64,000 bases of DNA from Arthrobacter sp. NEB 688 (GTDB taxonomy: Bacteria; Actinomycetota; Actinomycetes; Actinomycetales; Dermatophilaceae): positions 2,232,001 through 2,296,000 of the forward strand of contig NZ_CP053707.1 in assembly GCF_013201035.1 (NCBI RefSeq), read 5' to 3'. This document shows, piece by piece, positions 17,897 through 27,648 of this stretch. The notes below the pieces were generated by a model. It searched no databases and had not been told where the DNA came from. It saw only the letters and a list, made by a program, of their open reading frames with translations. The translations under genes and the position numbers were made by a program. Each line of letters starts with the position of its first letter. Position 1 is the first letter of the stretch.

Positions 17897-18361
17897 ATGA
17901 GCGCCCACCCCCACGCCCACCACGGCCCCACGAGCTGGCGCGAGGCCTCCGCCGCGACGCTGCACTGCCTCACCGGCTGCGCCATCGGGGAGGTCGCCGG
18001 GATGGTCATCGGCACGGCGCTCGGGCTCGGCACGGACGCGGTGGTCCTCCTCTCGGTCGTGCTCGCCTTCGCCGCCGGCTACGCCCTGACCGTCGGCTCG
18101 GTCCGCCGGGCCGGTCTCGCGCTCGGCGCCGCCCTCGGGGTGGCCTTCGCCGCCGACACCGTCTCGATCCTCGTCATGGAGGTCATCGACAACTCGGCGA
18201 TGGTCCTCGTCCCCGGGGCGATGGACGCCGGTCTCGGCACCGTCCTCTTCCGGGCCTCGCTCGCCGGGTCGCTGGCGCTCGCGTTCGTCGTCACGGTCCC
18301 CGTCAACCGGTGGCTCATGAGCCGGGGCCGCGGCCACGCCGTCGTCCACGCGATGCACTGA
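17897..18361 (+). CDS. DUF4396 membrane protein
   Basis: 154 residues with a His-rich N-terminus (MSAHPHAHHGP) and four hydrophobic helices. The family motif LHCLTGCAIGEVAGMVIGTA, with two cysteines three residues apart plus a preceding histidine, sits at the first helix; VNRWLMSRGRGHAVVHAMH ends the protein with more histidines. Cys and His at the membrane together with a CsoR-type operator suggest a role with copper or sulfane sulfur. DUF4396 has no established function that I know of. The gene starts 34 bases after the YhhN stop and ends at a strong hairpin, so it may also form its own unit. Confidence 0.8.
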   Translation: MSAHPHAHHGPTSWREASAATLHCLTGCAIGEVAGMVIGTALGLGTDAVVLLSVVLAFAAGYALTVGSVRRAGLALGAALGVAFAADTVSILVMEVIDNSAMVLVPGAMDAGLGTVLFRASLAGSLALAFVVTVPVNRWLMSRGRGHAVVHAMH

Positions 18362-18390
18362 CGCCCGGGCGTCCCGGCGACGCCCGGGCG
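18362..18390 (+). terminator. Hairpin after the DUF4396 gene
   Basis: Self-complementary CGCCCGGGCG occurs at 18362-18371 and 18381-18390 with a 9-base loop, beginning at the base after the stop codon. It isolates DUF4396 transcription from the leuS leader promoter just downstream. Confidence 0.7.
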
Positions 18391-18398
18391 CCCTGCGG

Positions 18399-18404
18399 TA
18401 CCCT
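18399..18404 (+). promoter_or_regulatory. -10 element of the leuS leader
   Basis: TACCCT, a common actinobacterial -10 form, placed so that transcription should begin at or next to the GTG of the leader peptide at 18411. No good -35 was seen. The leader ORF would then be translated from a leaderless end. Confidence 0.55.
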
Positions 18405-18410
18405 GAGCGC

Positions 18411-18437
18411 GTGCCGAGGCTCCTGCTCCTTCCGTAG
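18411..18437 (+). CDS. leuS leader peptide (attenuation)
   Basis: An eight-codon ORF, GTG CCG AGG CTC CTG CTC CTT CCG then TAG, encoding MPRLLLLP: four consecutive leucine codons out of eight, in a transcript for leucyl-tRNA synthetase. A run of the cognate codons just upstream of a terminator is the hallmark of ribosome-mediated attenuation: when charged tRNA-Leu is scarce a ribosome should stall here. There is no Shine-Dalgarno, consistent with a leaderless start. Stop codon lies directly at the base of the first hairpin. Confidence 0.8.
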   Translation: MPRLLLLP

Positions 18438-18490
18438 CCGCGCGGCCCACCCGGCCCGCGCGGCGACCCCTCCTGTGCGAGGGGTTTTTT
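18438..18490 (+). promoter_or_regulatory. leuS transcription attenuator (two hairpins, T-tract)
   Basis: Hairpin A pairs CCGCGCGG (18438-18445) with its copy at 18456-18463, extended inward by CC/GG after one mismatch. It is followed by an intrinsic terminator: CCCCTC (18467-18472), loop CTGTGC, GAGGGG (18479-18484) and six T residues (18485-18490). leuS begins right after. A stalled ribosome on the Leu codons would cover the 5' arm of hairpin A. The exact antiterminator pairing is not obvious by eye and needs a folding calculation. Confidence 0.75.
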
Positions 18491-18524
18491 CATGGCTGCA
18501 GGACACGACGACGACGAGGACGAG

Positions 18525-21428
18525 ATGAGCGACACCCCGTACCGCTACACCGCCGAGCTGGCCGGCCGCATCGAGGTCGCCTGGCAGGACCGCTGGGCCG
18601 AGCGTGGCACCTTCCACGCCCCCAACCCCGCCGGCCCGTGGGCCGAGCCCGAGGCCGTCGCCGGCTACGAGGGCGGGCACCTCCTCGTCCTCGACATGTT
18701 CCCCTACCCGAGCGGCGCGGGGCTGCACGTCGGCCACCCGCTCGGCTACATCGCCACCGACGTCTTCGCCCGCTACAACAGGATGCTCGGCAAGAACGTC
18801 CTGCACTGCCTCGGCTACGACGCCTTCGGTCTGCCCGCCGAGCAGTACGCGGTCCAGACGGGGCAGCACCCCCGCAAGACGACCGAGGAGAACATCGCCA
18901 TCATGGCGCGCCAGCTGCGCCGCCTGGGCCTCGGCCACGACGACCGCCGCGCCATCCGGACGATCGACCCGGACTACTACCGCTGGACGCAGTGGATCTT
19001 CCTGCAGATCTTCAACTCCTGGTACGACCACGACGCCCCTCGCGAGGACGGCGGCACCGGCCGCGCCCGCCCCATCGAGGAGCTCGTCGCCGAGTACCGC
19101 GACGGCACCCGCCCGCTGCCCGCCGACGACGGCCGCGGGTGGGACGACCTCTCGCACACCGAGCGGGCCGACCTGCTCGACGCCCAGCGCCTCGTGCAGT
19201 CGGTCGAGGCCACCGTCAACTGGTGCCCCGGCCTCGGCACGGTGCTGGCCAACGAGGAGGTCACGAACGAGGGCCGCTCCGACCGCGGCAACTACCCGGT
19301 CTTCAAGCGCCAGCTGCGCCAGTGGGTCATGCGGATCACCGAGTACGCCGACCGGCTCGCGGACGACCTCGACGGCGTCGAGTGGCCCGAGAAGGTCAAG
19401 ACGATGCAGCGCAACTGGATCGGCCGCAGCCAGGGCGCCCACGTGACGTTCCTGCTCGACGCCGCGCCGGACGCGCTGGGCATCGAGGTCTTCACGACCC
19501 GCCCCGACACCCTCTTCGGCGCGACCTTCATGGTGCTCGCGCCCGAGCACCCGCTCGTCGACACCCTCGTCCCGGCCGACGGCTGGCCCGAGGGCACCCG
19601 CGACGCCTGGACCGGCGGTCACGCCACGCCCGCCGAGGCGGTCGCCGCCTACCGCGCCGAGGCCGGCGCGAAGACCGACCTCGAGCGCCAGGCCGAGGGC
19701 AAGACCAAGACCGGCGTCTTCACCGGCGGGTACGCGACCAACCCGGTCAACGGCGCCCGCGTGCCGGTGTTCGTCGCCGACTACGTCCTCATGGGCTACG
19801 GCACCGGCGCGATCATGGCCGTCCCCGCGCAGGACGAGCGCGACTGGGACTTCGCGACGACCTACGAGCTGCCGATCGTCCGCACCGTGCAGCCGGGCGC
19901 CGACCACGACGAGTCGACCGCGTTCACCGGCGACGGCCCGGCGATCAACTCGGCCAACGACGAGATCAGCCTCGACGGCCTCGGTGTCGCCGACGCCAAG
20001 GAGCGGATGACCGCCTGGCTCGAGGAGAAGGGGTACGGCCGCGGCGCCGTCACCTACAAGCTGCGCGACTGGCTCTTCGCGCGCCAGCGCTACTGGGGCG
20101 AGCCCTTCCCCGTGCTCTTCGACGAGGACGGCATCGCGTACGGCGTGCCCACCGACCAGCTGCCCGTCGAGCTGCCGGACGTGCCGGACTACTCGCCCAA
20201 GGTCTACGACCCCGAGGACGCCGCCAGCGAGCCCGAGCCGCCGCTGGCGCGCGACACGGACTGGGTCGAGGTCGAGCTCGACCTCGACGACGGCCGCGGT
20301 GCCCGCCGCTTCCGCCGCGACACCAACGTCATGCCGCAGTGGGCCGGCTCCTGCTGGTACTACCTGCGCTACCTCGACCCGGCCAACGGCGACGCCCTCG
20401 TCGACCCGGCGAACGAGGACTACTGGATGGGCCCGCGCGAGACCCCCGTCGCCGGCGCACCGGCAGGCACGCGCGACCCCGGCGGCGTCGACCTCTACGT
20501 CGGCGGCGTCGAGCACGCGGTGCTGCACCTGCTCTACGCGCGCTTCTGGCACAAGGTCCTCCACGACCTCGGCCACCTGCGCTCGAGCGAGCCCTTCCGG
20601 ACGTACTTCGCGCAGGGCTACATCCAGGCCCCGGCCTACCGCGACGCGCGCGACCAGCCGGTCGAGGCCAAGGAGGTCGTCGAGGGTCCCGACGGCACCT
20701 TCACCTGGAACGGCGAGCCGGTCACCCGCGAGTTCGGGAAGATCGGCAAGTCGCTCAAGAACATGGTCAGCCCGGACGAGATGTACGAGATGTACGGGGC
20801 CGACACCTTCCGCCTGTACGAGATGGGCCTCGGTCCGCTCGAGCAGAGCAAGCCGTGGGACACCCGGGCCGTCGTCGGCAGCCAGCGCTTCCTCCAGCGG
20901 CTGTGGCGCAACGTGGTCGACGAGGAGACCGGTGAGGTCGTCGTCACCGACGCCGCCCCGGACGACGCGACCAACCGCGTCCTGCACCGGACCATCGACG
21001 CCGTCCGCACCGACTACGCCTCGCTCGGCTTCAACACGGCCATCGCGCGGCTGACCGAGCTGAACAACGCGCTGACCAAGCTCGAGGGCGGTGTGCCGCG
21101 CGCGGCCGCCGAGGCCCTCGTGCTCATGGTCGCGCCGATGGCCCCGCACCTCGCCGAGGAGCTGTGGATGCGGCTGGGGCACACCGAGTCCCTGACGCAC
21201 GAGGCGTTCCCGGTCGCCGACCCCGCGCTGCTCGTGGACGACACCGTGACCTGCGTCGTCCAGGTCCGCGGCAAGGTCAAGGACCGCCTCGAGGTGCCGA
21301 GCGACATCACCGAGGACGCCCTGCGCGAGCTCGCCCTCGCGAGGCCCAAGGTGCAGGCGAGCCTCGAGAACGGCGTGCGGACGGTCATCGTCCGCGCCCC
21401 GAAGCTCGTCAACGTCGTCCCCGCCTGA
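18525..21428 (+). CDS. leuS: Leucyl-tRNA synthetase
   Basis: 967 residues, class Ia synthetase charging tRNA-Leu. The HIGH motif appears as [15 protein letters not shown] near residue 57; the KMSKS loop as [15 protein letters not shown] near residue 748, with Ile and Gly as commonly seen in this group. A CP1 editing domain with [20 protein letters not shown] lies between. The ATG at 18525 has GAGGACGAG before it and matches usual N-termini ([11 protein letters not shown]); an in-frame ATG at 18492 abuts the terminator T-tract and is less likely. Expression is apparently controlled by the upstream leader peptide and attenuator. Confidence 0.97.
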
Positions 21429-27533: not shown

Positions 27534-27648
27534 GGTCATGAGTGCCAGTGACAAGCCCCGGCTCGCTGGCCGGCAACCCTCCTCCGCGGTGGGGTGCCCC
27601 GGGTGACGACCTGGTCGGCGCCGCCGTGGCGTCGGCAAGCGCGGGTCC
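27534..27648 (+). ncRNA. SAM-IV riboswitch
   Basis: Begins GGTCATGAGTGCCAG and continues with CAAGCCCCGGCT, GCTGGCCGGCAACCCTCC, the GCGGTGGGGTGCCCCGGGTG segment and closing GACGACCTGG, then the 3' GGCAAGCGCGGGTC that takes part in the SAM-IV pseudoknot. This matches the actinobacterial SAM-IV consensus (as in mycobacteria) nearly base for base. It senses S-adenosylmethionine. The downstream ribosome-binding site AGGAGG (27682-27687) sits within GGCC...GGCC (27674-27677/27686-27689), so control may be at translation. Confidence 0.92.

Follow-up and report, generated by a model that had tools for sequence, protein, structure and literature searches.

A leaderless leucine-codon leader, hairpin and terminator ahead of leuS: a very probable ribosome-mediated attenuator in Arthrobacter sp. 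NEB 688 and its relatives

Introduction

Attenuation of aminoacyl-tRNA synthetase genes is not new, an older case being pheST of the gamma-proteobacteria (PMC1262725). For leuS, a prediction of 2005 assigned attenuators built of a leader peptide, an antiterminator and a terminator hairpin to Streptomyces coelicolor and S. avermitilis (PMC1262725). In 2021 leuL2, a leaderless leader followed by a hairpin and a uridine stretch, was described ahead of leuS of S. lividans TK24 (PMC8079986), the same work reporting a TAnnnT -10 motif for that organism. The original prediction for the DNA studied here, which set a synthetase gene apart from the biosynthetic operons best known for attenuation, is weaker on this point than it implied. 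In the accessible part of the 2005 paper Streptomyces alone is named for leuS, and the leaderless start, the CTT codon and the fixed spacing discussed below are not mentioned there. Among the literature matches listed, we found no description of leuS attenuation outside Streptomyces.

Related designs are found at branched-chain amino acid genes. The ilvBNC attenuator of Corynebacterium glutamicum has three hairpins, and its transcript begins beside the start codon of the leader (PMC11857589); judging from the available text, its anti-antiterminator, antiterminator, terminator and adjoining start have proposed counterparts at the present locus, but it serves another gene and other amino acids and was tested there by mutation, whereas our locus is known from sequence. 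The ilvB1NC attenuator of Mycobacterium tuberculosis is similar in that it has a branched-chain uORF, a Rho-independent terminator and a switch set by the position of the ribosome (PMC13236596). The LEU element is different: it is a pseudoknot that brings Leu codons together with the Shine-Dalgarno sequence of leuA (PMC1262725), while the gene considered here is leuS.

Results and Discussion

The leuS locus and its place among known leaders

The window, i.e. the whole stretch of 64,000 nucleotides that was analysed, is part of a 4.08-Mb contig. The elements at leuS are the following:

18399-18404, + strand: -10-like box TACCCT, read from the sequence; predicted transcription start at about 18411
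18411-18437, + strand: leaderless leader ORF MPRLLLLP, GTG 18411-18413 to TAG 18435-18437, read from the sequence
18429-18431, + strand: CTT, the final Leu codon, 8 bases 5' of the hairpin; likely stall codon, from codon position counts
18437-18464, + strand: hairpin A:B (GCCGCGCGG...CCGCGCGGC), proposed anti-antiterminator; folding, -22.7 kcal/mol alone
18458-18478, + strand: candidate antiterminator B:C, GCGCGG.GA with TC.CUGUGC, which excludes the terminator; folding
18465-18490, + strand: intrinsic terminator, 8-bp stem, 6-base loop, six T; folding, -13.2 kcal/mol
18525-21428, + strand: leuS, leucine--tRNA ligase, 967 aa; TIGR00396 853 bits, cutoff 548

The leader reads directly as GTG CCG AGG CTC CTG CTC CTT CCG TAG, with the four Leu codons at 18420-18431, and is the peptide that had been proposed originally. 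Its placement at a predicted transcription start is likewise supported: the TACCCT box, which begins 12 bases 5' of the GTG with six bases between, fits the TAnnnT -10 of S. lividans, so that the transcript would start at or adjoining the GTG. A scan with the sigma-70 consensus returned no promoter here; we judge that consensus uninformative for this bacterial group. The fold of 18412-18491 reaches -41.3 kcal/mol (z -3.58), and none of 200 shuffles is as stable, in agreement with the earlier claim of a GC-rich hairpin and a six-T intrinsic terminator. Hairpin A:B consists of a 9-bp GC stem with a 2-bp inner extension, the terminator stem-loop spans 18465-18486 and the T run 18485-18490. What had been described as a ribosome-size gap before the terminator is not empty: it is occupied by A:B, a conserved hairpin.

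As to the gene itself, leuS more likely starts at ATG 18525 than at the in-frame ATG 18492, to judge from a GAGG at 18516-18519 and from relatives that begin with MSETPHRYTAEL or similar at the equivalent place. Three other matches in the genome cover part of the query with no more than 40% identity, and this gene is by far the best. Two further features of the window may be mentioned. A perfect 11-bp inverted repeat with a 5-base loop (18363-18389) directly follows the stop of an upstream DUF4396 gene and ends nine bases 5' of the leader's -10 box; it is possibly the terminator of that gene, overlapping the -35 region of the leader. An Rfam scan also located a SAM-IV riboswitch at 27534-27647 (+ strand, 110 bits).

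The element fits the actinobacterial leuS leader type, with a leaderless Leu leader (the start deduced from the box), a hairpin and a U-run. It has the leader peptide and terminator predicted for S. coelicolor and S. avermitilis and a candidate for their antiterminator, and it resembles leuL2 in its leaderless short Leu-run ORF (MRAVRLLLSEPR in leuL2), its hairpin and its uridines ahead of leuS. It differs from leuL2 in that the leader has 8 codons, MPRLLLLP, and a TAG that overlaps the first base of the hairpin, and in that it belongs to another family of the class. The window would thus contain a well-supported further case of the leuS attenuators already described.

Conservation in the family

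Upstream regions of leuS were obtained from 146 of 149 genomes of the family (three had no match at the cutoff, and a few regions are shortened by contig ends). A leader was counted where TANNNT starts 11-16 bases before a start codon and at least 3 of 4 codons specify Leu. By this rule 96 of the 146 regions have a leaderless Leu-run ORF, a count of related genomes and not of independent events, and each of ten dinucleotide-shuffled sets has 0/146. Other amino acids put through the same rule give one region for P, two each for Q and R and none for the rest. The Leu leader ahead of leuS is therefore real and far above chance. It is present in all ten genomes sampled from the genus of the window, the box begins 12 or 13 bases ahead of the start codon in most of the 96 leaders, and by the rule used a T-tract terminator follows in 83 of them.

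Loss of these features in relatives had been named originally as an argument against attenuation, and the picture is a mixed one. The Leu run is kept in the 96 regions above. The 50 that fail the rule were inspected by eye: 20 are degenerate, with fewer Leu codons and often Gln but with hairpin and terminator kept, and 30 are without the module. In two Phycicoccus elongatus loci (L006, L121) the leader, hairpin and terminator are gone, and a -10-like box and a short TTTCATG are left ahead of leuS, an arrangement that looks as after a deletion.

The codon-level conservation bears on two simple explanations. One could regard the terminator as an ordinary one belonging to the DUF4396 gene, which ends at 18361 on the same strand, and the short ORF as incidental. 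We give this very little credence, since a -10 box lies in between and the DUF4396 protein has a tblastn match in 7 of 47 leuS loci, the window's own included (a few loci are short upstream), the module being more widespread than that. Equally hard to credit is a tRNA- or metabolite-binding RNA with an untranslated ORF: T-boxes do govern most synthetase genes of Firmicutes (PMC1262725), but no Rfam family reaches its gathering score at the leader, the four matches with E<=1 in 18340-18560 lie far below gathering and none is a T-box, and the element is only about 80 bases long. That the Leu run is conserved as codons speaks against both.

Hairpin alignment and wider distribution

We aligned 63 leaders, 47 from the family (thinned for redundancy from the 83 with a recognised terminator) and 16 from named actinobacteria. 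The outer six pairs of A:B are kept in 63/63, and compensatory changes occur at two outer pairs, both sides being changed in 2 and 8 sequences, respectively. The leaders of Streptomyces pathocidini (L017) and S. durbertensis (L021) align with those of the family.

A covariance model built from this alignment has 25 matches at E<=0.01 in a phylum sample, in 23 of its 246 genomes: 15 at leuS, 6 near ilvB and 4 at neither. At the same threshold it matches 146 of the 296 genomes in the class sample, other genes included, and at E<=1e-7 there are 115 matches in 114 of the 296 genomes, all 115 at leuS (114 placed by coordinates or tblastn, and L280 by eye because of contig ends). Among the weaker matches are other branched-chain genes. 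Within the genome of the window the model makes one significant match, that at leuS; six more, with E of 2 to 10, are at chance level.

The leuS query at E<=1e-40 found just 140 of the 296 class genomes, because many carry a divergent leuS; for genomes matched by the model at E<=1e-7 the check was therefore made on the loci themselves. The divergent gene that stands behind many of the class matches is about 35-47% identical and scores above the TIGR00396 cutoff in 3/3 tested. The Leu leader was also seen ahead of this kind (L283-L285, L290, L291, L293, L295, L296, L304-L308, L310-L314, L243, L244), in genes about 35-45% identical to that of the window. Its presence at two kinds of leuS implies that the leader was retained, or gained anew, although the gene is not the same. 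Genome G553 contains both kinds of leuS, a single gene of each, and immediately 5' of each gene the model matches at E<=1e-12 (L279; C5:472928-473045).

A rare codon at a fixed distance from the hairpin

A CTT codon begins 8 bases 5' of the hairpin arm in 87 of the 96 family leaders, this position being in frame in 94 of them, and CTT is the last Leu codon in 87/96. The class and phylum set, to which the window and two more family genomes belong, has 87 leuS-adjacent loci. Of these, 75 pass when 2 or more of 4 codons must be Leu, and most of the 12 missed have a leader by eye. CTT is the last Leu codon in 67 of these 75 leaders and occupies the -8 position in 65 of 72, three of the 75 not being placeable; 12 of the 75 have exactly the leuL2 peptide. 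In coding sequence the codon is rare. It makes up 7 of 997 Leu codons (0.7%) in leuS coding sequence of 30 family loci, 15 of 1601 in 44 class loci (frames from tblastn) and 1 of 196 in four ORFs of the window. Among the earlier Leu codons of the family leaders it accounts for 50 of 236. In longer Leu runs (L101, L107, L109, L145 and L174, by eye) CTT stays in place and a further Leu codon comes after it.

Two other counts were put aside. A class coding background of 46 CTT in 1800 was discarded, as the longest forward frame can mislead in GC-rich DNA, and a spacing of 8 bases in 73/74 was biased, since the arm had been sought from six bases beyond the last Leu codon onwards.

Ribosome position and a candidate antiterminator

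In the fold of the window, A:B forms without a ribosome and also when the A site holds any of the first three Leu codons, seven of the nine outer pairs remaining for the third; with CTT in the A site it is opened. The same calculation over 82 leaders, with assumed footprint sizes, gave a similar outcome. The outer stem is kept in 78 leaders without a ribosome and in 76-82 with the ribosome two codons before the last Leu codon, and at the last Leu codon 0/82 keep it for all four footprints (+11 to +14). One codon earlier the result depends on the footprint (76/82 at +11, 0-1/82 at +12 to +14), and this codon may work as a stall site too. For comparison, a 26-base footprint centred on the codon is taken in PMC13236596. 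According to these computations, the rare CTT sits where, or adjoining where, a stalled ribosome would free arm B.

A stop codon in the A site frees arm B of the window as well. A ribosome resting there would do the same, and the model consequently needs fast release; in M. tuberculosis ilvB1NC, by contrast, the ribosome at the stop is reported to prevent the antiterminator (PMC13236596).

It had been suggested originally that a competing antiterminator should be sought by folding with stalled ribosomes. Such a structure is found: with CTT in the A site and the 3' arm of the terminator not yet made, the minimum-energy structure holds B:C at 18458-18478, which excludes the terminator. The pairing is nevertheless no better than expected from composition. 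When the 5' part of the window's terminator is shuffled, 1007 of 2000 versions fold as well and 451 of 2000 reach as many B:C pairs. Over 74 of the 83 leaders (nine failed the motif rule, seven of them for want of the arm motif) the observed energies are weaker than those of shuffles, with a mean z of +0.77; the B:C pairs number 3.69 against 3.41. B:C is computed at -7.6, weaker than the terminator at -13.2 and A:B at -22.7, and in full-length RNA of the window the terminator is favoured even when a ribosome sits at CTT. B:C would therefore need to act while the RNA is still being made.

These results leave some room for a variant in which leucyl-tRNA is sensed by stalling but B:C plays no part, the ribosome acting, for example, on RNA polymerase, by holding on to it or pushing it beyond the terminator, via Rho or on leuS translation. 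The shuffle tests give B:C no statistical support, and in L194 and L044 changes in A:B are accompanied by no matching change of the terminator loop that could be seen by eye. We still consider this variant improbable, because by the rule used a T-tract terminator follows 83 of the 96 family leaders and because the outer stem is opened by a ribosome held at the last Leu codon, just as a B:C switch needs.

Counterparts at cimA and ilvB

For the model matches that coordinates left unsettled, weak ones included, 74 loci were fetched. They comprise 44 leuS loci and 30 others, i.e. 26 cimA, 3 ilvB and one unidentified on a short contig (L297). The cimA loci (59-76% identity to CimA of the window's genome by tblastn) have leaders with ATT/ATC runs, a GC hairpin and a T-tract terminator. 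These Ile leaders are in the class sample (L286-L289, L298-L303, L309, L315-L322, L349-L352, L354-L356). The window's genome has one too (L357, G000:C1, upstream of 2063324), with VTFRDAATTAIIIV, ATC ATC ATC GTG TAG, a hairpin and a terminator; it was located through the gene and was not picked out by the covariance model. The distance from the last Ile codon to the GC hairpin is 8 bases in 14 of 26 leaders (L357 counted, L303 left out), 9 in five, and 6, 7 or 10 in the others. The boxes that can be made out by eye mostly read CANNNT, as against TANNNT at leuS. In the literature matches listed, 'citramalate synthase' and 'leader peptide' co-occur only off-topic, and the cimA leader may be less known than that of leuS.

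A leader of the same architecture with branched-chain codons precedes ilvB. Outside the class, five loci of the phylum sample (L245-L248, L250) have ..LVLIT or a similar run, a hairpin and a T-tract, with ilvB about 400 bases downstream and a small ORF between; in L248 this ORF has two candidate frames, with no Pfam match. The amino acid of the leader thus follows the gene, being Leu at leuS, Ile at cimA and branched-chain at ilvB, which supports sensing by codon.

Proposed mechanism

The conserved Leu run, the hairpin with compensatory changes, the terminator, the leaderless start and the Ile version at an isoleucine-pathway gene make attenuation the best reading. The original prediction of leucine attenuation of leuS is upheld by the same features, and we are rather confident that the element is a leucine-responsive, ribosome-mediated transcription attenuator. 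What the sequences themselves show is the parts with their conservation, the bias in codon use and the spacing, and the hairpin-opening stall position is computed; from these we infer the transcription start, the antitermination and the response to leucine.

The switch may be pictured as follows. The transcript would begin at the leader GTG and a ribosome could start at once. With leucyl-tRNA plentiful, it would pass the Leu run and be released; A:B (18437-18464) and then the terminator (18465-18490) would form, and leuS would not be transcribed. When charged leucine tRNA is short, the ribosome would stall, above all at the rare CTT (18429), and would mask the outer part of arm A. Arm B, freed in this way, would pair with the 5' arm and loop of the terminator, and RNA polymerase would continue into leuS.

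More broadly, we speculate, at about even chances, that the class has an attenuator chassis consisting of a leader ORF at the transcript start, sensing codons that end about 8 bases before a GC hairpin, and a terminator. Its codons would be retuned from gene to gene (Leu for leuS, Ile for cimA, branched-chain mixtures for ilvB), it would serve two divergent kinds of leuS, and the rare CTT at the hairpin-opening position would set the leucine threshold.

Conclusions

To specialists a leuS leader on its own is an expected finding. Attenuation of leuS, described for Streptomyces in the literature matches listed, appears to be widespread in the class, in accordance with the 114 of 296 sampled genomes that match at E<=1e-7. 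The leuS leaders also offer a rule that can be tested, namely that a single rare codon stands a set number of bases ahead of the hairpin, and the presence of the leuS (Leu) and cimA (Ile) designs in one genome would allow two pathway genes to be compared in a single organism.
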